This document shows, piece by piece, positions 4,531 to 58,260 of a DNA stretch of 64,000 nt (positions are counted from its first letter, which is position 1; each line of letters begins with the position of its first letter). Source of the stretch: Physcia stellaris (taxonomy: Eukaryota; Ascomycota; Lecanoromycetes; Caliciales; Physciaceae); assembly GCA_018902385.1 (NCBI GenBank), contig JABSSW010000004.1, forward strand, positions 1,274,823 to 1,338,822, given 5' to 3'. Position numbers and translations under genes: made by a program. The notes beneath the pieces were generated by a model, which saw only the letters and a program-made list of their open reading frames with translations, searched no databases and had not been told where the DNA came from.

Positions 4531-4760
4531 TAACATTCATTTTAACGATAATCGATATCGATTATCAATTGATTTTGATAAATGAAATTAAAATTAACTA
4601 AATTCATTATCAACAAAAAAAATTTTGTTGATAATGAATCGAGTTTTCAATGAATAATGTTCGTATCAAAAATCTGAAATCAGATTTGAAATTTACGCAA
4701 AATTTTCATCAAAATACACATACATTATGACTCGATCGAATTAACGTCTGATTTTTTAAA
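4531..4760. repeat. Palindrome/hairpin element P1
   Basis: A constant 16-bp box (TAACATTCATTTTAAC, 4531-4546) is followed directly by a perfect 20-bp palindrome (4547-4566; half site GATAATCGAT). About 36 bp later there is a 17-bp inverted repeat with a 4-base loop (4602-4618 and 4623-4639; arm begins ATTCATTATC). The next 120 bp match the constant part of the roughly 183-bp satellite (AATCTGAAATCAGATTTGAAATTTACG), ending in decayed sequence. The same layout with a different palindrome sequence recurs at 7621 and 43831. Only one satellite unit follows here. Confidence 0.8.
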
Positions 4761-7620: not shown

Positions 7621-8420
7621 TAACATTTATTTTAACGGAAGTGATGCATCACTTTCAACCGATTTGATGAATGAAATTAGAATTACTTAGCTTCACTTTC
7701 AATCACTAGAGAATCTGTTGAAAGTGAAGTCGTTTCTCGATGAATATTGCATTTATCGAAAATCTGAAACCAGTTCTGAAATCTACGTAAAAAATGAAGT
7801 TAAAAAGACATATGGTTTGTCCGGATCGGGTTAGCGACTAATTTGTTACGAATTTTTCAAATTTTGTTCACTCGAAATTTCTCGAAGTCTCGAGATTTGG
7901 TTGGAAGTGAAGTCGTTTCTCGATGAATGATACACGTATCAAAAATTTGAAACCAGTTCTGAAATTTACGTAAAAAACAGAATTGAAAAGTGATAAGATT
8001 GGGCCGAATCGGGCTAGCGACTAATTTGTTACGAGTTTTTCAAATTGAAAACTTCGAGATTTGATTGAAAATGAAGTCGATTCTCGATGAATATTACACG
8101 TATCGAAAATCTAAAATCAGTTCTGAAATTTACGTAAAAAATGTTATTGAAAAGTGATGAGGTTGGATCGAATCGGGCTAGCGACTAATTTGTTACGAAT
8201 TTTGAAAATTTTGAACTCGTAAATTTTTCGAAATTTCGACTTTTAATTGAACGTGAAGTCATTTCTCGATGAAAATTACACGTATCGAAATTCTAAAATC
8301 AATTATGAAATTTTCGTGAAAAATGAAATTAAAAAGTGATAAAATTGAAATTAATCACATTAACGATTAATTTTATACGAATTTTTGAAATTTTCGTCGA
8401 AAAAATGATTCGAATATCGA
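7621..8420. repeat. Palindrome/hairpin element P2 with ~183-bp satellite
   Basis: The constant box (7621-7636) is followed by a 20-bp palindrome with one mismatch (7637-7656; right half CATCACTTTC). Then comes a hairpin with perfect 12-bp arms (7691-7702 and 7718-7729; arm TTGAAAGTGAAG). The right arm starts the first satellite unit. Further units repeat a related word at 7903 (GGAAGTGAAG), 8067 (GAAAATGAAG) and 8249 (GAACGTGAAG), spaced 183, 164 and 182 bp. Each word precedes the constant TTTCTCGATGAATATT segment. Later units are progressively more mutated. It lies about 1.9 kb upstream of the first helicase copy, on the same side as P3 relative to the second copy. Confidence 0.85.
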
Positions 8421-9129: not shown

Positions 9130-9745
9130 TTTTATTCATGTACGAATAAATTGAATATTATTTACAATAGAAATTTATTTATGCACGATTAAATAAATAT
9201 TCATGCACGAATATAATTTAATTGATGCACGAATAAAATTTATTTAATACACGAGTAAAATTTAATTTATGCACGAATAAAATTTAATTCATACACGAAT
9301 AAAATTTATTTGATGCATGAATATAATTTAATTTATACACGAATATAATTTAATTCATGCACGAATATAATTTAATTTATGCACGATTAAAAATTATAAT
9401 AATAAAAATAAATATTCATGCACGAATAAATTTAATAATTCTAACAATACAAATTAACTTTTACACGAATCAATTTAATTCACGCACGAATAAAAAAATA
9501 TTCGTGCATAAATAAATAAATATTCGTGCATGAACAAAAAAATATTCGTGCATAAATAAATAAATATTCATGCACGAATAAATTTAATAATTTTAACAAT
9601 ACAAATTAATTTTTACACGAATCAATTTAATTCACGCACGAATAAATAAATATTCGTGCATAAATAAATAAATATTCGTGCATAAACAAAAAAATATTCG
9701 TGCATAAATAAATAAATATTCATGCACGAATAAATTTAATAAATT
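9130..9745. repeat. 14-mer array in both orientations, copy 1
   Basis: Many copies of ATTCATGCACGAAT and of its exact reverse complement ATTCGTGCATGAAT (or one-base variants), separated by AATAAATAAAT or TTTAATTT. Neighbouring copies in opposite orientation can pair, giving a cruciform-prone tract. The same array occupies 44940-45490, again just upstream of a helicase copy, so it belongs to the promoter or 5' region of that gene family. Confidence 0.85.
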
Positions 9746-10322: not shown

Positions 10323-11312
10323 ATGTCTTTTTACGATATTAACAATTCTAACGTTATTGACAACGTTCAACAAATTAACGATTTTCTTTATTACAATGAA
10401 AAAGTCAAAATTGTTTTTTGTACAAAATGTCACGTCGTTATAAACAACGAAAATAACGACAAATCGATTATTCATTTCAATTTTAACGTTCAACATCGAA
10501 ATTTAATTTTCAACGAGAAAAAAACAATTATCAACGAATTGAAAAAATATTCATTTGTTTCAACGAAAGATATTCAAATTTCGAAAAATTTCAAACATTT
10601 TTTTTCGTTTTTATACACATATAACGACGTTTTTTCGTGTAAATATTGTTCGTATGTTGTACGAAACAACAAAACAATGCGTATACATTGTAACAAAAAA
10701 CATAAATTCAAAAATACGATTCATTCAACAAAATCGTTTTACGATTCGAATATTCACGCACAAATTTTTACAACAAATCGATATCGAAAATATTTCGCTG
10801 TTTTATTCAATGACAATCAAATTAACGATACACGTCAAAATTCAACGTTACAAACAAAATTTACAAACAACGAAACAAATCAAATTAACGAATATAATTA
10901 ACAATTAAACGATATCAAAATGCAATCAATTTAACGAAACGAAACGACGCAATTCAAAAAATACAATTTGTTTTTACAACAATCATATTTTCACGAATAT
11001 TTCGAAAACAAAAATATTGACGATTTAATACAATTTGTCAATACAAAATTCTTGAAACAACACGAACAATTACGTCGTTTACACGAATTAACGTTTGAAT
11101 TCGCAATCGAATCAAACGAATTAATTCAAAAATTCGATATTCGATTAAAACAATTGTTACATACAAATAAAGCAATCGATATTGCTTTACATAACAAAAA
11201 AATGAATTCGTTTCAAAAATTACAAAATACGTTGTCAATTAAAAATTATTATTCGACGTTTGCAAATTTAATTTGTTATATTTATTATTCAATCGAAATT
11301 GAAAAATCAAAT
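10323..11312 (+). pseudogene. Telomere-linked-type helicase, N-terminal fragment (copy 1)
   Basis: This matches the first third of the helicase at 46009-50203 along its whole length. The start is the ATG at 10323 (MSFYDINNSN), shared with copy 2; a TTG-initiated extension six bases upstream is not needed. Two zinc-binding motifs are visible. One is C-x2-C at residues 33-36 followed by histidines near residue 51. The other is a C2H2 finger of the form C-x2-C-x12-H-x4-H (CKYCSYVV..). The pattern recalls the OrsD-type zinc domain often fused to fungal RecQ-like helicases; that link is from memory of the family. Two in-frame TAA codons (10899-10901 and about 10932) replace CAA codons of copy 2, a rare CpA change here. 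The reading frame is otherwise unbroken. Homology stops at about 11312, where repeat R1 begins, so all helicase motifs are missing. It is more mutated than copy 2. Confidence 0.85.
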
Positions 11313-11581
11313 ATTATATTGTTGAATGAATTCAGATTGAAATGATTTTCGTCGAATTTAAAAATTTTCGACATTTCAAAAAATTTTTCAGTTATTTCGA
11401 TTATCTCGTCATATCAAACGCAATTTTCAAAATGAAATCATAATTTCGTTTATGAAAATGTTTTTTTACATTTGATTCACAATTTAAATTTGATTATAAT
11501 ATATTGTACATTCAATGTTGAAAAATATTTTATTGCGCAATATTGCGACATTCAAAATTCATTCAAATAATGTTTTTTCAA
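11308..11581. repeat. Dispersed repeat R1, copy b
   Basis: Second copy of the 4254-4524 repeat in the same orientation. It begins exactly where the first helicase copy loses homology to the second, so its insertion, or a recombination through it, removed the rest of that gene. It still contains a few AG and CT that copy a has lost. Confidence 0.75.
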
Positions 11582-11789
11582 ATTTTCAAATTAACAAAAA
11601 TAAATAACAATTATTTGCAATCATAACATGATTCGATCAATAAAAATTTCGACATTCAAAATTTTAAAAATTTAAATTACACGCGTGTCGCAATGTCGAA
11701 ATTTTCATTAATTGCATATTTTTGTTTATGTTTACATTTTTGTATTTTTTCAAAATGTATCATGTATTAATCAAACAATTAAATTGTTT
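11582..11789. other. AT-rich spacer
   Basis: Short mutated stretch between R1 and the 147-bp satellite. Nothing is recognised in it. Confidence 0.5.
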
Positions 11790-43455: not shown

Positions 43456-43830
43456 CTAAAAATCGAACATTATGAAATTTGTATCGTTCGTATTTTCGTT
43501 GATTTCGAATTCGTTTTCGTCATCGAAATTTTTCACGTTGTTTTTTTTCGTCATCGTCGTCGCTTTTTGCATTTTTTTCTTTTTGATCGCATTGAAAAAT
43601 TCGATTTTAATATTTCGATTTTTCGCATTGTGCGAAAAAGCAAAATTTCTAATTGTTTTTCGCATTTTTTTCATCGCGTCAACAAAATTCGTCGTTTTCA
43701 ATGCACGAATTTTTATATTATTATAGAAAACGCGTTGCGCGATCAATTTCGTCATTGAATACAAATATTTTTTTATTGCGTTTTGCGTTCGTTCAATGTT
43801 TTCATCGTTTTGAAATTGAAATGAATTATC
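43456..43830 (-). pseudogene. Hypothetical lysine-rich fragment cut by P3
   Basis: Minus-strand frame of up to 126 codons, lysine- and asparagine-rich, probably helical (TQNAIKKYLYSMTKLIAQRV, VDAMKKMRKTIRNFAF), with an acidic C-terminal tail (FDDENEFEINENTND). No family recognised. Its upstream end coincides with the constant box of palindrome element P3 at 43831, suggesting that P3 lies inside or beside a broken gene. Alternatively it is only an open frame in mutated DNA. Confidence 0.3.
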
Positions 43831-44890
43831 TAACATTCACTCTAACGGTATCGGTGCACCGGTACCGCAAATTTTGGTGAGTGGAATTAGGGTTAACTAG
43901 CTCCGGTATCGATGAAATGCTGTTCCAGCGATACCGATGCGAGTTCTCGATGAATACTTGACATATCGCAAATTTGAAAGCAGTTCTGAAATCAGCTCAA
44001 AAAAACGCATCTTTTTCACATATATTATGTCTCGATCGGGTTAGCGGTTAATTTTTTAAAAAATTTTCAAGCAAGTTTTTCGAAAATTTCGATTAAGTCC
44101 CGAGATCTTTGCGGTACCGGTGTTGTTTCTCGATGAATATTTGACGTATCGTAAATTTGAAACCAGTTTTGAAATCTACAAGAAAAACTGAATAAAAAAG
44201 TGGTGGGATTGAGCCGGATCGGGTTAGCGGCTAATTTGTTACGAATTTTTCGAATTTTGATAACTCGAAAATTCGACTAAGTTTCGAGATTCTTGCGATA
44301 CCGATGCTGTTTCTCGATGAATATTTGACGTATCGTAAATTTGAAATCAATTTTGAAATCTACAAGAAAAATTGAATAAAAAAGTGATAAGGTTGAGCCG
44401 AATCGGGCTAGCGACTAATTTGTTACGAATTTTTCGAATTTTGATAACTCGAAAATTCGATTAAATTTCGAGATTTTTACGATATCGATGCTGTTTTTCA
44501 ATAAATATTTGACGTATCGAAAATTTGAAATCCATTTTGAAATCTATGAAAAAAACAAAATAAAAAAGTGATGAGATTGAGTCGAATCGAATTAACGATT
44601 AATTTTTTACAATTTTTTTGAAAATTTGTATTTTGAAAATTTAATTAAATTTCGAGATTTTTGCGATATCGATGTTGTTTCTCGATGAATATTTGACGTA
44701 TCAAAAATTTAAAATCGATTTTGAAACTTACGTTAAAAATAAAATAAAAAAGTGATAATGTTTAGTCAAATCGAATTAATTAATGTTTGATGTTTTACGA
44801 ATTTTTCGAATTTTTTTATCTCGAAAATTTGATTAAGTTTCGGAAACTTTGCGATAACGCAATCGTTTCTAAATTTATACATGAACGTTA
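43831..44890. repeat. Palindrome/hairpin element P3 with 184-bp satellite
   Basis: The best preserved copy. The constant box TAACATTCACTCTAAC (43831-43846) is followed by a 20-bp palindrome with one C-to-T mismatch (43847-43866; right half CACCGGTACC). About 37 bp later there is a hairpin with arms CGGTATCG/CGATACCG (43904-43911 and 43929-43936). Words related to the palindrome recur at 44113 (GGTACCGGTG), 44297 (GATACCGATG), 44481 (GATATCGATG), 44665 and 44853, spaced 184, 184, 184 and 188 bp; the hairpin arm is also 184 bp before the first. Each word precedes TTTCTCGATGAATATTTGACG. Another constant block, GGATCGGGTTAGCGGCTAATTT, contains TTAGC-N-GCTAA. Mutation increases from left to right. 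It stands about 1.1 kb upstream of the second helicase copy. Confidence 0.9.
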
Positions 44891-44939: not shown

Positions 44940-45495
44940 AATTCATGCACGAATAAATTTTAATTCATGCACGAATAAATAAATATTCATGCACGAATAT
45001 AATTTAATTCATGCACGAATATAATTTAATTCATGCACGAATATAATTTAATTCATGCACGAATATAATTTAATTCATGCACGAATATAATTTAATTCAT
45101 GCACGAATATATTTTAATTCATGCACGAATAAATAAATATTCATGCACGAATATATTTATTAATTTTAACAATACAAATTTACTTTTACACGAATCAATT
45201 TAATTCATGCACGAATAAATAAATATTCGTGCATGAATAAATAAATATTCGTGCATGAATAAATAAAATAAATAAATATTCGTGCATCAATAAATAAATA
45301 TTCATGCACGAATAAATTTAATATTTTTAACAATACAATTTAATTTTTACACGAATCAATTTAATTTTCGCACGAATAAATAAGAATTCGTGCATGAATA
45401 AATAAATATTCGTGCATGAATAAATAAATATTCGTGCATGAATAAATAAATATTCATGCATGAATAAATAAATATTCATGCACGAATAAATTTAA
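44940..45495. repeat. 14-mer array in both orientations, copy 2
   Basis: ATTCATGCACGAAT and its reverse complement ATTCGTGCATGAAT, roughly two dozen copies, separated by ATAATTTA or AATAAATA. The left half is mainly one orientation and the right half mixes both. It corresponds to 9130-9745 and lies in the same place relative to the helicase start. Confidence 0.85.
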
Positions 45496-45589
45496 TAAAT
45501 TTAATAATAAAATTTTATTCTTTTTGCAATATATAAACAACGAAGTTTTCTTTTTAATTTTTTTTCAATCATTCACATTTTTCACATTT

Positions 45590-45975
45590 TCACACATTTA
45601 CACACGAAACATACACACGATACACATATTGACAACAAACATACAAAATACACATACGAAACACACATACAACATACATATTCAAACGATATACACAAAA
45701 CACAAACACGAAACACACGCACGAAATATATACACGCAACATATACACAACACATACACACGTACAATTTTCACACGAATTACATACGCGAAATACAACA
45801 CAAAAACATTAAAAAATCTTTGAACGTTAAGTTTATTTCAATTTGTTAATTTGTTTTTTGATTTTTTTGATTTTATTGTTTTATTGTTTTGACTTTATTG
45901 TTTTGACTTTATTGTTTTATTGTTTTGACTTTATTGTTTTGATTTTATTGTTTTATTGTTTTATTGTTTTATTGT
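45590..45975. promoter_or_regulatory. Helicase 5' region: ACA-rich tract and TTTTATTG tract
   Basis: 45590-45795 is an asymmetric ACA-rich tract (CACACGAAACATACACACG-like). 45880-45975 is a TTTTATTG/TTTTGACTTTATTG microsatellite. Both are conserved in order and position with copy 1 (9836-10278), and the ATG follows 34 bases after the second tract. They are probably leader or promoter sequence of the helicase gene. No TATA box or transcription start can be fixed. Confidence 0.55.
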
Positions 45976-46008
45976 TTCTTTCTATTTTCAAGAATAAATT
46001 TTTTCAAA

Positions 46009-49000
46009 ATGTCGTTTTACGATATCAACAATTCTAACGTCATTGACAACGTTGAACGAATTAACGATTTTCTTTATTACAATAAAAATTCAAAATCGTT
46101 TTTTGTACAAAATGTCACGTCGTTATAAACAACGAAAACAACGACAAATCAATTACTCATTTCAATTTTAACGTTCAACATCGAAATTTAACTTTCAACG
46201 AGAAAAAATCAATTATTAACGACTTGAAAAATTACACACTTGTTTCAACGAAAGATATTGAAATTTCTCAAAATTTCAAGCATTTTTTTTCGTTTTTGTA
46301 CACATATAACGACGCTTTTTCGTGTAAAAAGTGTTCGTATGTTGTACGTAACGAAAAAAAAATGAGTACTCATTGTAATCAACAACACAATGACAAAAAA
46401 ACAAAACAATCAACAGAAACGTTTTATAATTCGAACGTATACGCGCAAATTTTTACAACAAATCGATATCGAAAATTTTTCGCTGTTTTATTCAACGACA
46501 ATCAAATCAACGTTACACGTCAAAATTCAACGTTACAAACAAATTTTACAAACGACGAAACAAATCAAATCAACGAATATAATCAACAATTAAACGATAT
46601 CAAAATGCAATCGATTCAACGAAACGAAACGACGCAATTCAAAGAATACAATTTGTTTTTACAACAATCATATTTTCACGAATATCTCGAAAACAAAAAT
46701 ATTGACGATTTAATACAATTTGTCAATACAAAATTCTTGAAACAACACGAACAATTACGTTGTTTACACGAATTAACGATTGAACTTGCAATCGAATCAA
46801 ACGAATTAATTCAAAAATTCGATATTCGATTAAAACAATTGTTACATACAGATAAAGCAATCGATATTGCTTTATATAACAAAAAAATGAATTCGTTTCA
46901 AGAATTGCAAAATACGTCGTCAACTCAAGATTATTATTCGACGTTTGCAGATTTAATCTGTTATATTTATTATTCAATCGAAATTGAAAAATCAAATTAT
47001 TCGCAACTCGTTATTACAACGACAATTTCGAAAATTATTCGATTAATTACTCAACTTCTGTCTCGAATCGAACAAAATAACGACGAAAAACAACAAACGA
47101 TATTTAAACAAACGATTCAAACGTGTATAATTCGATTAACATTCGAATTGTTACGTCAAAAAACAGAACAAAAACGATTTGACAAACACGCAACGTTTGA
47201 CAATATTGTTGTCACGTTTTGTGTTTGCAAATCAATAAATTCTGTTGATAAAACATTTATCAAAACGTCAATGATCGAAAAATTATGCAGCAAACTTCTT
47301 TACATGCTTCGATATTTTTACATGTTGTACGTCAATTATCGAAACAATCAAGCAAACGACGACGACGATAATGATTTCAATTTGTCATTGTTTTTTCACG
47401 AAAATTTACTTGAACACGTATCAAACGATTCACGAAATTGTTTCGAAACAATACAAAATTATCGAGCTTTATCGCGAAAAATCTCTATGAACGAAACGAA
47501 AAATTCAAAAATTACAAACGTTTTTAACGATATTTTTCGATACGAAAACGTTGAAATTTCAATCAACAAATTGCGAATGTTTTTCGATCAATTAATTGAT
47601 GATCTTGAACGACAATTGTTTGATAAATTGTTACAAATCGACAAAAACGAACTCGAAACGTCATTTAATCTTAATGAAATATATGACGATTTACACGAAC
47701 AAAAAAATCAATTTTATTTCGTTGAACACGTCACGAAAAATCATGATTTTTTGCATTTAAAACAATTTTTAATTCGACGTTTTTTCAAAATAACGACTGA
47801 ATTTCATTGTTTTTTTCACGACAAAAATACAACAATTAATAACAATCAACTTTCGTTGTATTTACAACATCGAAAAGACTTTTTAAAATTGTTATTAATT
47901 GTTATTTATTTAACAATCGAAACGTTTGCTCGAGACGAAAAAATTATTAAAACAAAATTCAAAAATTCGTTATATACGAGTTTACGCGAAATCTTTTACG
48001 ACGAAACATCGAAATTAATCATGTTTAATTTACGATATCACAAAAATCAATCGAAACAACGAAAAAACAACAAAAATATTCGATTTTGTAACGAACGCGT
48101 TTCAAAAATTATCGTTTATTATTTATTGTTCGTGCAATCTTTTTACGAATTTTTACAAATTCGTTATTTAGATTCGAAAACGTTGTCGTCGATTCATTTA
48201 TTCGAAAATAACGACAAAACATTCACATCTGAATCAATGTCTGATTTTATTAAATTAAAATCGTTAGAATATATTCAAACGCCGTTACGAATCGCGATGT
48301 TACGTCAAGTCATGACGTATATTATTCGTGAACGAATTTTGATTTCAAATTACAACGACGACGATTCGTCGAATTCTGACAACGACGAATCAATACAATT
48401 TATACAAGCGAATCATTCTCGTAAAACGAATCAATTTCATTACGGACGCGATCAACATACGTTGATAAATACATCGAAAAATGCACAACTCGAAGCGTTG
48501 AAATTTTGCAAAAAATATCAAGAATTTTTCAATTTAAACGGAAATACGATTACGAAACGTATTCGTTCAAATTCAAACGACGACGACGACAACGTTATAA
48601 CAACAAACAAAAAATTAAAAACGTCAAATGAAATATCTTTCAATACGTCGTTATTAACACGAGATGTTAACGAAAACGTTTTTGATTTAAATTTATCGTT
48701 ACAACGATTTTTCAAAAATTCAAACGCAACGTTTAAATCAAACGCACAATTCGAATCAATAAAAGCAATCGAAAATAACGTTTCGAATGTGTTTTTTCGA
48801 GCAGGAATCGAAGCAGAAAAAAGTCTGTTATTTATGTTTTCGTCATTTATTTCGAAAGAAACAATTAACTTTGTAGCGTTGTCACTTGTATCGTTAAAAT
48901 TCGACATGAATCAACGATTGAAAACGTTCAATATTCACGCAGAATTATTCGAAAACAACGTACAACATTCGTCAAATTTGCAATTAATATTTTACGAAAG

Positions 49001-50203
49001 TTTACTCGAAAATTCAACGTTTTACGATTATTTATCGTTACAAATTCGACAAAATAAACATATTCGACTTTTTTTCGACGAAGCACATTTGATTGTTTTG
49101 CATAAACAATTTCGATATATCATGAAACATCTGTCACAAATCAATTTGTATAAAATTCAATTGATATTTTTATCAGCAAGTTTCACAACAGAAATTTTCA
49201 AGAAATAATTACGCAATTTTCGATTCAAAAATACGAATTATTTCACACATCAACGACACGAAATAATATCAAATATATCGTTCGAGAACATAAACAAAAT
49301 ATCGATATATTTGAAGATTTGAAAAATTATATTCAACAAGAACTTTATCAAACGTTGAAAAACGACGAAAAAATATTGATTTATACAAAAGAAAAACAAC
49401 AATGTGAAAATTTCGCACGTAAATACAAAACATTGTATTATCACGCGAAAATGACACAAGACGACAAAGAATCGACGCAAAAATCGTTTTTTCAAGACAA
49501 TAATCAACGTATTTTAATTGCTACTTCAGCATTTAACGAAGAAATCGATTATTCGTCAATAAAATACGTTTTACACGTTTCAAAACACGAATCAATGATT
49601 ATTGTCGATCAACAAATCGGACGAGCCGGTCGTAATAACGAGAATGCAACATCGATTTTTTTCGTTCCTTACAATTTTCTATCACGAAAAATAGAAAATA
49701 AAATCGATCGAAAAATAACGAAAGAAAACGACGTTTTTCGAATCGATCAAAATATGTTACATGCATATTTATTAGAAAAGAAATGTTTACGACGCGTTCT
49801 CGACAATTATTTCGACAATAAAAAAACTGAAAAGTGTTCACACAATCAAAATCTTTGTTATTTATGTGAAAAACGATTCAACGAATTACAACAACAAAAA
49901 ACAAACGAAATTTCGAAAATTTCGTCGAATTTTCACGAAGAATCGAATTTTTTACGATATTACGAAAAATTTTCGAATTTTTGTTTCAATTGTTTTCGTT
50001 ACAGAAAATTTGACGATATGCATTTACACGAAACGTCAAATTGTAAATATGAAAAACTTTTCGATTTTCAAGTTTTAGCAAAGAATATCAAAGACGAAAT
50101 CAAGAAAAACAAATTACTCGTTGAAGAATTTTCTTGTTATTATTGTTTATTGCCGCAAAAATTGTGTAACAATACACGAAAAATAACAAATGTCAATATT
50201 TAA
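46009..50203 (+). pseudogene. Telomere-linked-type RecQ-like helicase, broken (copy 2)
   Basis: A long helicase gene in three frame segments. ATG at 46009 (MSFYDINNSN, as in copy 1) runs to a TAA at 46126 because one base is missing near 46083-46096 relative to copy 1. The main frame runs to 49208 and ends ..FTTEIFKK. The last part, open from about 49205 in another frame, ends at 50203. Visible features in order: a C-x2-C zinc motif; a C2H2 finger (C-x2-C-x12-H-x4-H, about 46323-46388); a long helical middle; a Walker A region AGIEAEKS (48801-48824), where Glu stands in two positions normally Gly; DEAH (49077-49088); SAS (motif III); motif VI QQIGRAGR near 49607-49633; and a C-terminal zinc domain (CFNC.. 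HETSNC.. CYYCLLPQKLC, 49980-50170). Motif VI and DEAH put it in the RecQ-like group, and the N-terminal fingers recall OrsD-type fusions. Known relatives sit in fungal subtelomeres; their function is unproven. Damaged Walker A and frame breaks make it inactive. Confidence 0.85.
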
Positions 50204-50255: not shown

Positions 50256-51419
50256 TTGATGAATTCGTATTTAACGAATTTTTCGAAATCGAATTCGAAT
50301 TCGAATTCTTTGACGTTTTCGAAATTTATCTGTCAAAAATCTTCAATATTCGATACAGATTGCATACACGCTATGCATATTATTTACGAATTTATTCAAA
50401 ACTTCGACAGATTGATTTCAGAATTAATGAAAATTCACAATTCTCACAAAGAACGACAAAAACAATTGAAAAATTCAAACAACGAATCAAAACAACAATC
50501 GAACGTTCAATTCAACGATAATTCAAATAATAAATCGATTAACGATTCAAACGACGAATCAAATGACGATTCAAACGACGAATCAAATAACGATTCAAAC
50601 GACGAATTAAATAACGATTCAAACGACGAATCAAATGACGAATCAAACAACGAATCAATCGACAAATCGAACGATTTATCGCGTCAAAAATCAAACGATT
50701 CTTTGCATTTACAATTCGAATCAACGTTAAATATAAGTCAACGTGACAATAATCAAATTTCGTCGAATATTATACAGAAATCGAGTCACGATTCGATTTC
50801 GAATTCAAGTATCGATTCAAAATTTGAAACAACATCTTTTCACAAACAAGACAAAATTGTGAAAGAAAAATACAAAGAATATGTCAAACAAGCACGCAAA
50901 AACGTCAAAAACAAAACAATGATTCAAAACATGATAATGTCAATTGAAAATTTCGTAAACAGTTCAGAATTTTACGATTTAATCGACGAAAAAACGTACG
51001 ATTATTATCACGATAAAAAATCGACTCAAAACGTTACGAAAAAACAATCGAAATTTATAATCGATGACAACAATTTATACGATATATCATCGTCTTCAGA
51101 CGACGAAATTGTCGACGAAATTGTTCGAAAAAACAAAACATTGAACATGTACGATTCGTTTGTTCAAAACGAATACAACAAATATGTTCGAAAATGTCGA
51201 AAACAAAAAACAACAACAATGAATTTCATTTTATCAATTGACGATTTGTTCAAAACGACGAATTTCATAACAATATTAACGACGAAAAATCGAAACGTTG
51301 TCGCGAAATATATTCAACACAAAATATTCGACAACAAAAACGTAATTTACGAAATCAACAACAAACGAAAAAAATATTTCAAGAACATCAAAACAAAAAT
51401 ACACGCGAAATTGATATGA
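50256..51419 (+). CDS. Companion protein, N-terminal part (Ser/Asn/Asp-rich)
   Basis: Open frame of 387 codons starting 53 bases after the helicase stop. It has an N-terminal helical part, then a low-complexity tract of repeated NDSNDESN (12 bp per NDES unit, about 50540-50660). It then has two related domains of about 55 residues. The first contains KYKEYVKQARKN and IMSIENFVNSSEFYDLI; the second contains EYNKYVRKCRKQ and ILSIDDLFKTTNFITIL. This is an internal duplication. The frame ends in ATGA, overlapping the next frame by four bases. In a fungus this is more likely a frame break inside one gene, or an unrecognised intron, than two translated genes. No known family. Composition is mildly mutation-affected (few Gly and Pro). 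Confidence 0.5.
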   Translation: MMNSYLTNFSKSNSNSNSLTFSKFICQKSSIFDTDCIHAMHIIYEFIQNFDRLISELMKIHNSHKERQKQLKNSNNESKQQSNVQFNDNSNNKSINDSNDESNDDSNDESNNDSNDELNNDSNDESNDESNNESIDKSNDLSRQKSNDSLHLQFESTLNISQRDNNQISSNIIQKSSHDSISNSSIDSKFETTSFHKQDKIVKEKYKEYVKQARKNVKNKTMIQNMIMSIENFVNSSEFYDLIDEKTYDYYHDKKSTQNVTKKQSKFIIDDNNLYDISSSSDDEIVDEIVRKNKTLNMYDSFVQNEYNKYVRKCRKQKTTTMNFILSIDDLFKTTNFITILTTKNRNVVAKYIQHKIFDNKNVIYEINNKRKKYFKNIKTKIHAKLI

Positions 51420-52306
51420 CAAACGTTGAAAAAAATGAAATATTCAACAACGAATTTATACAATTGTCAAACAGTGCGAATTCAATCGACAAATCAAACG
51501 AAAATTCAAACGAAAATTCAAACGACGACGAAAATTCAAACGACGACGAAATTTCGAACGACGAAAATTCTGACGACGACGAAAATTCTGAAAATGAAAA
51601 CACAACAACGTCGAAAAATCGATTGTTAAAATCAAACGATATCGATGTTGAATTTTCTGATAATTCTGACGACGAACGAAAATTCGACAAATTTCAACAA
51701 TTATATCAATCTCGAAATCGTTTCGAACTTCTTGAAAACAACGATACAAACGACGACGAATTCGATATAGACGACGATTTATTACAACACATGAAAAATC
51801 AAATCGAAAACGAAATAATCAACGAACAATTTTCGAAAATTATCAAAAAAATTCAACGATTGATCACACGTTGTATATTTTGTAAAATATACAAATCGTC
51901 AAATTATCTTTCACATTCGTCGTCAAAATGCAAGAAATTTAAAAAATTAGAATTTCAAATTGCGTACGAATTGTTAAAACAATCGAGTCGACTTTTTAAC
52001 GATTCAAAATATTCGAATCGAAAATTCGAAACGATTTGTTCTGAATGTCTTATGTCGTTCAAAATTTGTTCTATTTTTCGTCGAAAATCGAAATATTCAA
52101 AAATGAAACGTTGTGTTTTATGTCAAGACATATTTGCATATTTACACGTTATTCACGCGTACAAAAACGATTTGAAAGAAGAAATCGTTAAAAATTTCAA
52201 CGTTGACAATAACGAATCAACGTGTTTTGCAAATCATTTATCAGACAAAATTTTATTTCGAAAATTAGAAGCGAGTCAAGCGTTTAAATACATTGTCAAT
52301 TTTTAA
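51416..52306 (+). CDS. Companion protein, C-terminal part with helicase-like zinc domain
   Basis: Open frame of 296 codons. An acidic Asn/Asp/Glu/Ser-rich start (NENSNDDENSND, about 51500-51600) is followed by a helical segment and a cysteine-rich domain: C-x2-C (RCIFCK, about 51872), HSSSKC, then CSECLMSFKIC (about 52040-52075), and C-x2-C again (RCVLCQ) with H-x3-H-like residues after it. The first three groups match, in order and approximate spacing, the C-terminal domain of the helicase just upstream (CFNC, HETSNC, CYYCLLPQKLC). The two genes therefore share a zinc-binding domain, which suggests a common partner or nucleic-acid target (inference). An AATAAA at 52348 could serve polyadenylation. 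The next gene is convergent. Confidence 0.55.
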   Translation: MTNVEKNEIFNNEFIQLSNSANSIDKSNENSNENSNDDENSNDDEISNDENSDDDENSENENTTTSKNRLLKSNDIDVEFSDNSDDERKFDKFQQLYQSRNRFELLENNDTNDDEFDIDDDLLQHMKNQIENEIINEQFSKIIKKIQRLITRCIFCKIYKSSNYLSHSSSKCKKFKKLEFQIAYELLKQSSRLFNDSKYSNRKFETICSECLMSFKICSIFRRKSKYSKMKRCVLCQDIFAYLHVIHAYKNDLKEEIVKNFNVDNNESTCFANHLSDKILFRKLEASQAFKYIVNF

Positions 52307-52563
52307 TTTTTTGTATTTACAATTTATATCAACGAAATAGTTTTACGAATAAATTCATAAAAGTATCAGTTTTCAAGCTAAAATTCTGCAAAAAATACAT
52401 GACAATCACAAATCAATGAAGAATTTTTAAAAAGAAACAAAAAATTAATTGCGTCATGAATTGACGAAATATGTTGAATATTTCGCGTAAACTATCTACA
52501 GAGACTATCTAGTAATTACGTTTCAAAAGTTGCAATTTCTCACGACATTTCTATAAAAATTAG
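52307..52563. other. Convergent intergenic spacer
   Basis: Space between the ends of the companion protein (plus) and the AT-hook gene (minus). It holds AATAAA at 52348 and normal dinucleotide composition begins here. No gene is seen. Confidence 0.6.
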
Positions 52564-53320
52564 TCAAATATCACGTGAAATGACACATTGATTTATCTCG
52601 AATTGCTCGAGACAATGTTGCATTTTAGTGAAGATTTTCTAATAACGTTAATAATAAAATAAAGATTAATACAAGAATAACTTACTTCTGTCTTCACTGC
52701 CTGACTCTTGACTATTCTAGCCGACAGTCTAGTCCCAGAATGACTAGTAAGAGTCGATTTCGGGCGATTTTTTGAGCCTTTAGGTCGCTAAACAAAATTA
52801 GCAAATAATTGACAGAAAATTACAAAAAAGAAAGAATTACTTACGCCTCGAGAACGACGTTCGTTCGACTGGTAATTTTCAGCATTTGTAGCTGTATTAC
52901 TGTCAATATTGACAGAATTTTGGCCGAACTATAGCAATTGTTAATGATTTATTATTGAAAAAACAAAAAAAGTACTTACAGTTGTATTGACATGAGTGGC
53001 TTGCCAATTGCCGTCCGAGTCAACGTGATACGTCAGATTGTCGTCAAATGACGTGTTGTTATACAACATTGCGTCATCGACGTAATTGACAGACTGTATG
53101 ACATATTAATCAATAATTAATGAAGTTAGAAATAAGAAAAACTTACTGTCGGCATCACTTCTCAACGCGATTCCCAATTGTTGTACTCGTCTCTGACAAA
53201 GACGAATTTCTCTCCGGCATTTACCGGCAGAATATTGAGCATTTTCCAGAGATCTTGAGAAGTAATCTCGGGATGTGTAGACGCATGAAATCGAAAATAG
53301 TCTTCGAACGCAGATGACAT
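52564..53320 (-). CDS. AT-hook protein, five exons, one premature stop
   Basis: The minus-strand gene starts at ATG 53320 (MSSAFEDYFR). Exons: 53320-53147, 53093-52980, 52928-52845, 52787-52686, 52638-52564. All four introns (53, 51, 57 and 47 nt) start GTAAGT, end CAG/TAG and fall between codons; intron 1 has CTAAC. The conceptual product is 182 residues. Exon 1 encodes a small folded-looking part (ITSQDLWKMLNILPVNAGEK). Exons 2-3 are Asn/Asp/Thr-rich. Exons 3-4 join to RRSRG and RPKGSKNRPK, a classical AT-hook (core RGRP) that binds the minor groove of AT-rich DNA. Exon 5 is short and helical. An in-frame TGA at 53164-53162 lies in exon 1 between ESR and EVMPT; it would arise from TGG by one G-to-A change. 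Base composition is normal, unlike all neighbours, so this is probably single-copy DNA spared by RIP. Function unknown; location presumably nuclear. Confidence 0.75.
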
Positions 53321-53599
53321 CTTCTGTATGTGTATGTGTGTTCTATCGACTATCTAGCTAGCTAACAGAAGAGTTTTGTCATGAATAAAGACGAAAAGAA
53401 CGAGAAATTTCATGAATTATATAGACAAACTGCTCGGAAATAATTGAAAGTTTATTTGAATATTTTCAATATAATTCGTATTAATTTATTGATATTCTAG
53501 TGAAACTGCATTAGTTTATTGATTTTCAATGAATATTGCATTAGATTATTGATTATGCATGCACGTATATGTACATATATATTGATTGATTATGCAATT
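53321..53599. promoter_or_regulatory. 5' region of the AT-hook gene
   Basis: Just upstream of the minus-strand ATG lie a pyrimidine/TGTG run (about 53333-53345), CTAGCTAGCTA (53354-53366) and an ATTATATAG box (53415-53424) at a plausible TATA distance. Further out, GCATTAGTTTATTGATT and GCATTAGATTATTGATT repeat (53508 and 53548). The assignment is by position only. Confidence 0.35.
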
Positions 53600-54640
53600 A
53601 ACAAAAACTCAAAATCGAGTCATTTCGAGAGAGTAAACCATGCAGCCACGAACGTGAAAATCTTCTAAAATGATTTCATGAAATGAATGCAAAATATCTG
53701 AGATAGTGACTGAATAGAAAGCAGATTGCAATGTTCTCGAACGAAATTTCGAACGATATCAACAAGCGCTCAGAATCGAGTCATTTCGAGAAAATAAATC
53801 ATGCAATCACGAACGTGAAAATCTTCTAGAATGATCTCATGAAATGAATGCAGAATATCTGAAATAATGACTGAATAAAAAGCAGATTACAATGTTCTCG
53901 AACGAGATCTCGAACGATATCAACAAGTGCTCAGAATCGAGCCATTTCGAGAATGTAAATCATGCAGCCACGAACGTGAAAATCTTCTAGAATGACCTCA
54001 TGAAATGAATGCAGAATATCTGAGATGATGATTGCATTGAAGACAGATTGCAATGATCTCGAACGAGATCAATAGATTTTCGAAATCGAATCATTTCGAG
54101 AGAATGAAATCTGCAGTCACGAACGTGAAAATCTCCAAAAATGATCTTATGAAATGAATGCAGAATATTCTGAGATGATGATTGCATTGAAAAAAATTGC
54201 AACAAATTCGAAATGTTTCGAAATGAACGAGCAATCTCGAATAAAAATTTTTAAAATATCATGAAAACAAAATATTGAAATAATGATTGAATAAAAAACA
54301 AATTGCAATGATTTCGAACGAAATTTCGAACGAAATCAATAAATTTTCGAAATCGAATCATTTCGAAATAATGAAATCTGCAATCACGAACGTGAAAATT
54401 TTCAAAAATGATTTCATGAAATGAATGCAAAATATTCTGAGATGATGATTGCATTGAAAACAAATTGCAATGATTTCGAACGAAATCAATAAATTTTCGA
54501 AATCGAATCATTTCGAAAGAGTGAAATTTGCAATCACGAACGTGAAAATTTCCAAAAATGATTTCATGAAATGAGTGCAGAATATTTGAAATGATGACTG
54601 CATTGAAAACAAATTGTAATAATTTCGATTTTGCAAATAA
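53600..54640. repeat. ~150-160-bp satellite with a left-to-right mutation gradient
   Basis: Landmark CACGAACGTGAAAAT at 53647, 53809, 53969, 54118, 54385 and 54535. The unit also contains TGATCTCATGAAATGAATGCAGAATATCTGAGATGATGATTGCA-type sequence (split across copies) and TCGAATCATTTCGAGA. Left units keep CTTCTAGAATGACCTC. Right units read TTTTCAAAAATGATTTC, so mutation rises away from the AT-hook gene. Minus-strand frames through it are repeat shadows. Confidence 0.85.
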
Positions 54641-57039: not shown

Positions 57040-58260
57040 CGTTACGTTTCGATTGAATTAACGATTAATATTATAAAAAACTTTTCAAGCAAGTTTTTCG
57101 AAAATTTCGATCAAGTCTCGAGATTCTTGCGGTATCGGTGCTGTTTCTCGATGAATATTTGACGTATCGTAAAACTGAAACCAGTTTTGAAATCTACAAG
57201 AAAAACTGAATAAAAAAGTGATGAGGTTGACCCGGATCGGGTTAGCGGCTAATTTGTTACGAATTTTTCGAATTTTGATAACTCGAAAATTCGACTGAAA
57301 AGTTTTGAAATCTACAAGAAAAATGAATCTTGTTGAGCCGGATCGGTTAGCGTGCTGTTTCTCGACGAATATTTGAAGTATCGTAATTGTGAAACCAGTT
57401 TTGAAATCTACGTAAAAAATGAAAATAAAAAGTGATATTGTTGAGCCGGATTGGGTTAGCGGCTGATTTTCTACGAATTTTTGAAATTTTCGTATCTCGA
57501 GAATTCGACTAAGTTCAGATAAAACATCGGTACCGAAGCTGTTTCTCGACGAATATTTGACGTATCGAAAATGTGAAACCAGTTTTGAAATCTACGTAAA
57601 AAACTGAAATGAAAAGTGATAAGGTTGGGCCCAATCGGGCTAACGGCTGATTTTTCACGAATTTTTGAAGTTTTGTATCTCGAAAATTCGATTATGTTTC
57701 GATAAAACATCGGTACCGAAGCCGTTTCTCGATGAATATTTGACGTATTGAAAATGTAAAATCAGTTTTGAAATCTACGTGAAAAATAAAAATAAAAAGT
57801 TGTATTGTTGGGCCGAATTGAGTTAGCAATCGATTTTTTACAAATTTTTGAAATTTTGTATTTCGAGAATTGATCGATATCGAAATTTTTTCTTAACGAA
57901 TATGTGACGTATCGAAAATCTGAAATCAAATTTGAAATTATAATAAAAAATGATATCATTTTTACATAAATTAAATTTCAATTGAATTAGCGATTGATTT
58001 TACACGAATTTTTGAATTTTTGTATTTTGAAAATTCGATTACATTTCGATAATTCATCGACATTGAAATCGATTTTCGTCGAATATGTGTCGTATCGAAA
58101 AAATAAAATCAATTTTAAAATTGACGTAAAAAAAATCAAAAATGATAAAATTGAATCGAATCAAATTAACGATTGATTTTTTACGAGTTTTTGAATTTTT
58201 GTATTTCGAAAATTCGATTTAATTTCGAAATTTCGTTAAAAATGAAATTTTTTTTCGATG
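57040..58260. repeat. ~183-bp satellite, third array (no palindrome head)
   Basis: Begins in a segment homologous to the start of the P3 satellite (TTTTCAAGCAAGTTTTTCGA) and carries the P3-type word at 57131 (GGTATCGGTG), then TCGGTACCGA at 57527 and 57710 and TCGATATCGA at 57874 (spacings 183 and 164 bp for the last steps). One unit near 57300-57360 is partly deleted. Constant blocks GGATCGGGTTAGCGGCTAA and TTTCTCGATGAATATTTGACG are kept. Units after 57850 decay progressively. The constant box, palindrome and hairpin are absent at its left end. Confidence 0.85.

Follow-up and report, generated by a model that had tools for sequence, protein, structure and literature searches.

What kind of element carries a recognition word that differs from one locus to the next but is repeated within each locus? 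The question is raised by three units, at 4531 (P1), 7621 (P2) and 43831 (P3), of the window, by which we mean the whole stretch of DNA analysed here (C4:1274823-1338822, the final 64 kb of a 1.34-Mb contig in a 44-Mb assembly of 147 contigs; contigs are designated C with a number). Its GC content per kb is 0.19-0.35, the first 3 kb excepted. A sequence-only reading had described a constant 16-bp box, a palindrome, a hairpin and iterons at these places, and had compared them to an iteron origin or to transposon subterminal repeats read by a cognate factor, with gene conversion as the alternative. Our comparison of copies across the genome suggests that the unit probably forms the recognition end of mobile subtelomeric elements of the telomere-linked helicase (TLH) type, in which the OrsD domain of the encoded protein would read the family word. 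The original frame is thereby extended by a precise element end beside a helicase gene and by a candidate factor that covaries with the word.

Results

Copies of the unit

The units were confirmed at all three positions in the window (Table 1). Each box directly abuts a 20-bp dyad, followed by a G-rich stretch and a hairpin. The box recurs at all three loci, but its letters are not constant, as they vary through C-to-T decay (TAACATYCAYTYTAAC). The P1 word GATAATCGAT is likewise a decayed form of GGTAGTCGAT. Iterons follow the hairpin at P2 and P3, but not at P1, where the hairpin word is readable and no iteron is. The hairpin right arm is indeed the first member of the iteron phase at P3, but the phasing is not exactly 184 bp throughout: the first step is 183 bp and the later ones are 184 bp.

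Table 1. Position of the unit, the element gene and neighbouring repeats in the window
Feature	Position	Strand	Basis
P1 decayed B-family box, dyad, hairpin, no readable iterons	4531..4639	+	pattern search, dyad reading
P2 box, dyad (C family, GGAAGTGGTG type), G-rich stretch, hairpin	7621..7729	+	pattern search, dyad reading
P2 C-family iterons, steps of 183, 164 and 182 bp	7718..8394	+	repeat listing, frame-anchored words
Element gene start behind P2; C-type OrsD cassette at 10407-10880	10323..10949	+	profile search, alignment
P3 left-end box TAACATTCACTCTAAC, target TC (43829-43830) just before	43831..43846	+	box pattern search, flank reading
P3 20-bp dyad, family A word GGTACCGGTG (GGTATCGGTG/CACCGGTACC)	43847..43866	+	dyad reading, covariation alignment
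P3 G-rich constant stretch containing TTAGGGTTA	43876..43895	+	copy comparison; telomere repeat of the genome is TTAGGG
P3 hairpin; right arm word at 43930-43939 opens the iteron phase	43901..43943	+	word count, covariation; folds computed on other copies
P3 A-family iterons, 183/184 bp; words at 43930, 44113, 44297, 44481, 44665	43930..44870	+	repeat listing, frame-anchored words
22-bp repeats (ATTCATGCACGAATAAATAAAT), iterons on one side, leader on the other	44941..45491	+	repeat listing
Leader preceding the gene; inter-family transversions 1.8-4.4% over about 270-290 aligned bases	45540..46008	+	alignment
Element protein codons 1-28 (MSFYDINNSNV...), conserved in the compared families	46009..46092	+	translation, alignment
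OrsD zinc-finger cassette, A type, varies between word families	46089..46563	+	alignment
Open frame P0001: remaining OrsD, central domain, RecQ N-terminal motifs (by eye)	46224..49208	+	ORF list
RecQ helicase C-terminal part, Helicase_C 1.6e-16, RecQ family 2.2e-20	49319..50203	+	profile search
Two more open frames of the element, without Pfam match	50256..52306	+	ORF list, Pfam
Box-less iterons right of the element: A type, then E type (CATCGGTACCGAAGC)	57080..57871	+	repeat listing

The genome search that had been proposed for the box followed by a palindrome was carried out on the whole assembly with a relaxed box pattern, which matched 52 places; the same pattern reversed, as a control, matched 15. 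A dyad, defined as at least 12 of 20 positions symmetric, is present at 40 of these 52 places. Forty-seven were read, and five, of the TAACATTTATTATAACA kind, lie outside the reading. Broken C-type dyads occur at two places (C144 and C105:26071), and no dyad was found at five of the places read (C3, C8, C21, C7 and C29:355382). The copies in C105 may be C10 duplicated by the assembly.

The unit recurs in one order, from the box (TAACATYCACTCTAAC) through the 20-bp dyad and some 10 bp more to the G-rich stretch, the hairpin and the iterons, after which come 22-bp repeats and then the gene. In several of the least decayed copies the G-rich stretch reads GGTGGGTGGGGTTAGGGTTA, and GGGGTTAGGGTTA lies within it in the less decayed ones. 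Iteron spacing is mostly 183 bp, mostly 184 bp in family A, with one 164-bp step in C arrays, and the iterons are in phase with the hairpin right arm. As single strands, five of five copies tested folded with z-scores of -4.4 to -9.3. In four of the five, the minimum-energy fold encloses the dyad hairpin by pairing part of the box with the G-rich stretch, in registers that differ. The 22-bp repeats at 9133-9735 and 44941-45491 of the window, which stand ahead of the element gene behind P2 and P3, are made up of the inverted word ATTCATGCACGAAT / ATTCGTGCATGAAT.

Word families and covariation

The 40 copies fall into six word families, whose half-dyads are GGTACCGGTG (A, 13 copies), GGTAGTCGAT (B, 11 copies), GGAAGTGGTG (C, 12 copies, including that of C36 with three mismatches), GGAACCCGAG (D, one copy), GGTACCGAAG (E, two copies) and GGAACCGGTG (F, one copy). 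Words were assigned by their place in the frame of the unit, and C-to-T and G-to-A decay was tolerated. The claim that the hairpin carries the word of its own palindrome held throughout, since the right-arm word was that of the dyad family in 32 of 32 readable copies; the filter left eight of the 40 unreadable (C10:74202, two in C34, C41:37965, C91:21514, C91:24192 and two in C105). The same claim for the iterons was borne out genome-wide by 127 of 137 words, where the family iteron words were defined from these same copies and the test is one of agreement between features. Random 10-mers of the same DNA were assignable to a family in 267 of 8000 draws. The ten off-family words comprise eight E words, distal in A or B arrays, and two chance-like AT strings. 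Further loci with unrelated words, or without the box, had been named as the observation that would speak against matched words, and the genome-wide count did not refute them.

A first word count without frame anchoring was dropped in favour of the anchored one, since C and D words, once decay is tolerated, find matches in AT-rich background. In that count 36 of 40 rows had the dyad family as best-listed family of the hairpin, with some ties; the exceptions were C10:74202 (hairpin missing), C36, whose dyad tied between A and C and whose hairpin was C, and both E copies, in which A tied with E. Apart from their distal place in A and B arrays, E-type iterons occur at 57530-57871 of the window and, in C10 and C142, right of ORF4.

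The suggested test for covariation was performed on an alignment of 36 copies (35 distinct), from which four of the 40 were omitted as broken or noisy. Dyad and hairpin are paired in 95.3% of the cells, and their covariation score is 0.670, compared with 0.258 +/- 0.016 after shuffling; none of 500 shuffles reached it. Both-sided changes were found in 17 of the 23 pairs, which two of 500 shuffles equalled, and the count of further pair types was not unusual (193 of 500). When a dyad half was compared with the hairpin left arm, a separate feature, the score was 0.600 against 0.246 +/- 0.024 (0 of 500 shuffles), and further pair types were again not unusual (105 of 500). The scores dropped to 0.02-0.13 once the partners were slid out of register. 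In two families the dyad word and the hairpin/iteron word are one letter apart at a fixed position: GGTAGTCGAT against GGTAGTGGAT in B, and GGAAGTGGTG against GGAAGTGGAG in C.

Left boundary and target site

The upstream flanks of the 40 copies differ and are not shared in register, except in a few nested or tandem cases. Their last two bases are TC in 30 copies, TT in nine and AT in one, while TC accounts for 6.0% of the dinucleotides in the flanks. Undecayed boxes follow TC in 22 of 22 cases, and decayed boxes follow TC in eight, TT in nine and AT in one. The TT junctions are explained by decay, since a junction TC followed by T lies in the decaying CpT context. The base preceding TC varies among copies.

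Unfilled sites were found for three insertions (a slash marks the junction). P1 sits in a repeat whose other copies, at 11440 in the window and in C53, read ...TTTTC/AAATTAAC uninterrupted; its target site was identified through the unfilled copy at window 11440-11586. The E element of C5 sits in the start of an OrsD gene, of which uninterrupted copies elsewhere read ...TTC/AAAA. The B element of C10 sits in an iteron, with the unfilled reading ...TTC/TGAAAT. Since the unfilled sites carry TC, it belongs to the target. The box is thus the sharp left boundary of the element, directly 3' of a target TC.

On contigs longer than 100 kb, 30 of 33 copies face the nearer contig end, the exceptions being that of C36 and two of the three in C5; the other seven of the 40 lie on contigs shorter than 50 kb. 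The contig ends may partly be caused by these repeats, an effect that does not account for the orientation. TTAGGG telomere repeats are present at ends of five contigs (C1, C46, C69, C72 and C77) and not at the end of C4. The genome-wide search listed no box on any of the five, and no unit was found in the 1.5 kb read beside the C1 telomere. Contigs with copies near their ends show no telomere repeat. After the C1 telomere repeat comes CCCAGCGGTACCGGCCGGG, in which 13 letters agree with the A hairpin arm (CCAGCGGTACCGG), perhaps by chance.

Host genes that we take to encode a polyketide-synthase-like acyltransferase (C18) and a condensation-like protein (C5) are cut or flanked by copies; genes of these kinds point to a filamentous fungus. 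At C5:956115-969305, an A element faces a D element that holds an E element inside, and the helicase genes converge near 960500. The layout resembles that of two fused chromosome ends, or a join made by the assembly.

Element gene and OrsD type

Of the 18 places with a helicase gene, 14 have a box 2.4-6.8 kb upstream of the gene and oriented like it, C144 with its broken dyad counted; no listed box was found at the other four (C10, C12:36216, C142 and C92). Fungal TLHs are recognised by a RecQ-family helicase with an OrsD domain in or beside it, and both were found here. In the helicase frame of the window, Helicase_C matched with 1.6e-16 and TIGR00614 with 2.2e-20; the latter match has 72.9 bits, under the curated cut-off of 219.8, for a scan of the C-terminal part alone. 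The copy in C67 has an open frame of 1763 codons, with OrsD (PF12013) at 3.7e-11 and 43.9 bits against a cut-off of 26.6, and with RecQ motifs recognised by eye. PF12013 also matched the gene behind P2 (2.6e-07). In the P3 copy a frameshift separates codons 1-28 from the OrsD cassette, and P0001 had no homologue at E 0.001 or better in a large protein set.

The central domain contains an R...YHK...R...QxNH...Y pattern, which we take to be tyrosine-recombinase-like. The domain aligned with the divergent F-type copy of C29 at 18-22% identity (E 1e-07 and 1e-06, without composition correction), in a run in which wrong-strand matches reached E 0.002. In this weak alignment an R, the YHK and a further R line up, and QxNH...Y is present in both copies but unaligned. 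No tyrosine recombinase was matched by sequence in Pfam or PDB, and a single-sequence structure model was unusable (pLDDT 36). No HUH (Rep) nuclease was found by Pfam in the element proteins. The gene relative that follows the F-type unit of C29 is thus decayed and far diverged, yet the box and G-rich stretch of that unit match those of the other families.

Families were compared by transversions, which C-to-T decay cannot produce. Codons 29-185 differ by 0-5.0% within families and by 9.8-36.0% for B or E against other families. A and C, whose dyad words have the last four letters in common, differ by 3.3, 7.2 and 1.3% in codons 29-100, 100-160 and 160-185, respectively. Between families, the values are 0-2.4% for codons 1-28, 0-5.6% for codons 185-209 and 0-2.7% for later codons, which were compared over their length in A and B copies only, with C to codon 250 and E absent. 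OrsD is the protein part that differs between the four word families compared. As judged from these alignments, inter-family divergence lies in two blocks, the array and the OrsD cassette, with little between them, because the leader and codons 1-28 hardly differ. The C62 element combines a B word and a B OrsD with a backbone nearer to the A copy of the window (0.1-0.9%) than to the B copy of C67 (1.2-2.7%), as would be expected from cassette exchange.

OrsD was found at 18 places genome-wide, 13 of them with a readable upstream box; four of these served as queries and nine as test elements. The OrsD type clearly equals the box family in seven of the nine: C4:1320914, C91, C5:959251 and C41 (A), C57 and C34 (C), and C62 (B), the agreement of C34 being narrow (283.6 against 278.4 bits, 88 against 86%). 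The remaining two, C12:72960 and C12:84422-84893, are frameshifted and of ambiguous type by protein score. C12:72960 scores 252.2 bits with A and 249.3 bits with C, and its DNA in codons 29-160 is nearer to the C copy of the window. Five places were excluded, four for want of a readable box (C12:38853, C10, C142 and C92) and C144 for an A/C tie. The cognate factor that had been postulated has thus acquired a candidate, the OrsD zinc-finger domain, which varies with the word and whose binding to it we infer. Word and OrsD sit on the same element, at a distance of about 2-3 kb or more, so that their association is partly simple co-inheritance.

Right side of the element

Eight of ten copies have about 0.7 kb or more in common right of ORF4. 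The shared region reaches window position 54628 in the comparison with C12, and continues until the contig end in C53. The C10 and C142 copies run from ORF4 straight into E iterons. This comparison omits C67, which runs off its contig, and C12:79419, which is cut. No fixed right end and no target duplication were found right of ORF4 in the ten copies. Position 52372 (after TATC) was dropped as a right end, since eight of the ten copies share sequence past it, and AAGTC (tandem B copies, C53) was dropped as another repeat interrupts the C53 stretch. Viewed as an inverted-repeat transposon, the element has a sharp left end and two kinds of right region, without a common terminus.

In C12, a nested C element cuts the outer ORF4 after residue 37. 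No ORF4 piece there continues the cut copy, and the ORF4 copies at 33 and 67 kb have their own starts. In the window, the only continuation of the P1 target was the unfilled copy near 11400, short matches aside. The missing ORF4 continuation would be consistent with a lost distal part, but the assembly has breaks in such regions.

Two other stretches were observed. After ORF4, at window 52340-54628, come tandem repeats of 150-160 bp and a stretch that resembles a gene and is less decayed. A B iteron array in C53 contains, at 311694-314175, a repeated sequence of normal GC content and about 2.1-2.5 kb in length, a second copy of which is found in the C36 element (93% over 2.1 kb, opposite orientation).

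Discussion

Under the reading that we favour, a TLH-type element with its own recognition end, the OrsD domain would bind the word of its own family, as a dimer on the dyad and at repeated single sites in the array, and this binding would place the protein at its own element's end. Either an invariant portion of the protein or a host factor for telomere repeats may read the box and the G-rich stretch. The box would then be joined to a new TC site, by recombination or by transfer of a single strand. The word would have diversified along with the OrsD cassette, such that the families retain separate recognition, and the rest of the gene would stay nearly alike and recombine between families. A broader proposal, which we offer tentatively as a possibility rather than an expectation, is that TLHs are mobile elements that tell self from non-self. 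A swappable OrsD cassette would specify a 10-bp word that is present many times in the element's own end; the elements would attach after any TC and replace or cap the distal DNA, and the chromosome ends would become stacks of competing families. On this proposal, TLHs and the OrsD domain would gain a function.

An alternative that we regard as unlikely is that the unit is a subtelomeric chromosome-end module, that is, a replication, insulator or silencing element read by the host and spread by end-to-end recombination. The words would then be host or chromatin binding sites, and no element-encoded recombinase would take part. The yeast X and Y' subtelomeric elements, with which such a module may be compared, have a helicase gene, tandem repeats and telomere-repeat-like motifs, all common with the present element, and have spread among chromosome ends; they are not known to have a family-specific word matched to a coding cassette. 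The telomeres of this genome are TTAGGG, TTAGGGTTA resembles a telomere-repeat factor site, and GGGGTTAGGGTTA occurs in the less decayed copies. The orientation of copies on large contigs (30 of 33 towards the nearer end) would also be accounted for, as would the displaced target halves (ORF4 of C12 and the P1 target), which were not refound, as if all distal DNA had been exchanged. However, the boundary always lies 3' of TC, or of its decayed form, at unrelated flanks, unlike homologous exchange, and one host factor could hardly account for six words, to which the OrsD types correspond in the four families that were compared.

It is improbable that concerted evolution suffices, with conversion and unequal crossing-over copying one word along an array without a cognate protein. 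Iterons are alike inside arrays, and some A and B arrays switch family distally, which resembles conversion or array fusion. In contrast, the fixed one-letter difference between the dyad and the hairpin/iteron words throughout B and C argues against free copying, and dyad and hairpin keep their arms matched through changes on both sides in 17 of 23 pairs. Moreover, the OrsD cassette differs in step, while the intervening leader and codons 1-28 hardly change. Gene conversion alone, the alternative raised by the sequence-only reading, is therefore unlikely, since the one-letter difference persists and is paralleled by differences in a protein-coding cassette. The arrays may nevertheless still be undergoing internal homogenisation.

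There is little to recommend a rolling-circle or single-strand transposon end (Helitron, IS200/IS605 or parvovirus-like), in which a folded end is recognised and the helicase unwinds the element: the five folded copies, the pairing of box and G-rich stretch in four of them, the one sharp and one variable end and the insertion after a dinucleotide are as it would predict, but no HUH nuclease was found by Pfam, the helicase matches RecQ models, TC is the target's and not an element terminus, and no 3' CTRR end was identified. A Helitron in particular fits poorly, because no Rep was matched in Pfam and the helicase matches RecQ models rather than the expected PIF1 type. A Helitron would also have a 5' TC of its own and insert between A and T, whereas here TC is present in unfilled targets and the base before it varies.

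The proposed TLH-type element can be compared with several known systems. In Cryptons and Starships, the first gene lies near one end and reads inward, and insertion occurs next to a short target word. The present element resembles them in gene placement, in the short target word and in the weak tyrosine-recombinase-like residue pattern. It differs in combining RecQ and OrsD in one protein, without a Pfam recombinase match. In geminivirus origins, the iterons lie near a hairpin. Geminivirus and other CRESS-DNA origins carry short repeated words that differ between close relatives and match the cognate Rep (PMC12548392). The likeness lies in relative-specific repeated words with a cognate protein near a hairpin; in contrast, the present system is chromosomal, has a zinc-finger/RecQ protein and 183-bp spacing, and no Rep nuclease was found.

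TLH regions are described in Ustilago maydis (UTASa/UTASb), Magnaporthe and Fusarium oxysporum (tlh) and fission yeast (tlh), and TLHs are RecQ-like, with OrsD nearby or attached, and occur in many copies; U. maydis UTASb is described with an OrsD domain, and chromosome-end regions of F. oxysporum show RIP decay and tandem repeats, according to passages of PMC10532341, PMC12857005 and PMC8381367. Fungal TLHs, as presented there, agree with the present gene in having a RecQ-like helicase with OrsD, in being multicopy and in lying towards chromosome ends. In contrast, those passages contain no sharp TC-adjoining left end, no dyad-hairpin-iteron unit and no OrsD-matched words. The TLHs that they describe in U. 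maydis and F. oxysporum are at telomeres or chromosome ends, whereas the telomere-bearing contigs here are without a listed box. The titles and abstract beginnings of the literature searched contained no description of such an end unit or of a word/OrsD match. Within those sources, TLH genes are already known and the matching of word to OrsD is apparently new. TLHs occur in many fungi.

If the recognition-end reading is true, it would be a eukaryotic case of cis sites co-evolving with a DNA-binding domain inside one mobile element, much as iterons and Rep are matched in small DNA viruses. A sharp end, a repeated family word and a variable protein part coexist in one genome with natural variants, which makes the match testable in vitro.

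The repeats of this genome also differ in their decay from classical RIP, which favours CpA. Their decay is C to T, mainly at C before a pyrimidine (window 3000-64000 and other copies). In eight comparisons, which include alignment noise, the decayed sites were 49-86% for CpC, 29-57% for CpT, 10-26% for CpA and 13-33% for CpG. A CpT bias is reported in PMC4352252, the main text of which does not mention CpC. The observed/expected ratios in the window are 0.08 for CC, 0.24 for CT, 1.26 for CA and 3.34 for CG.
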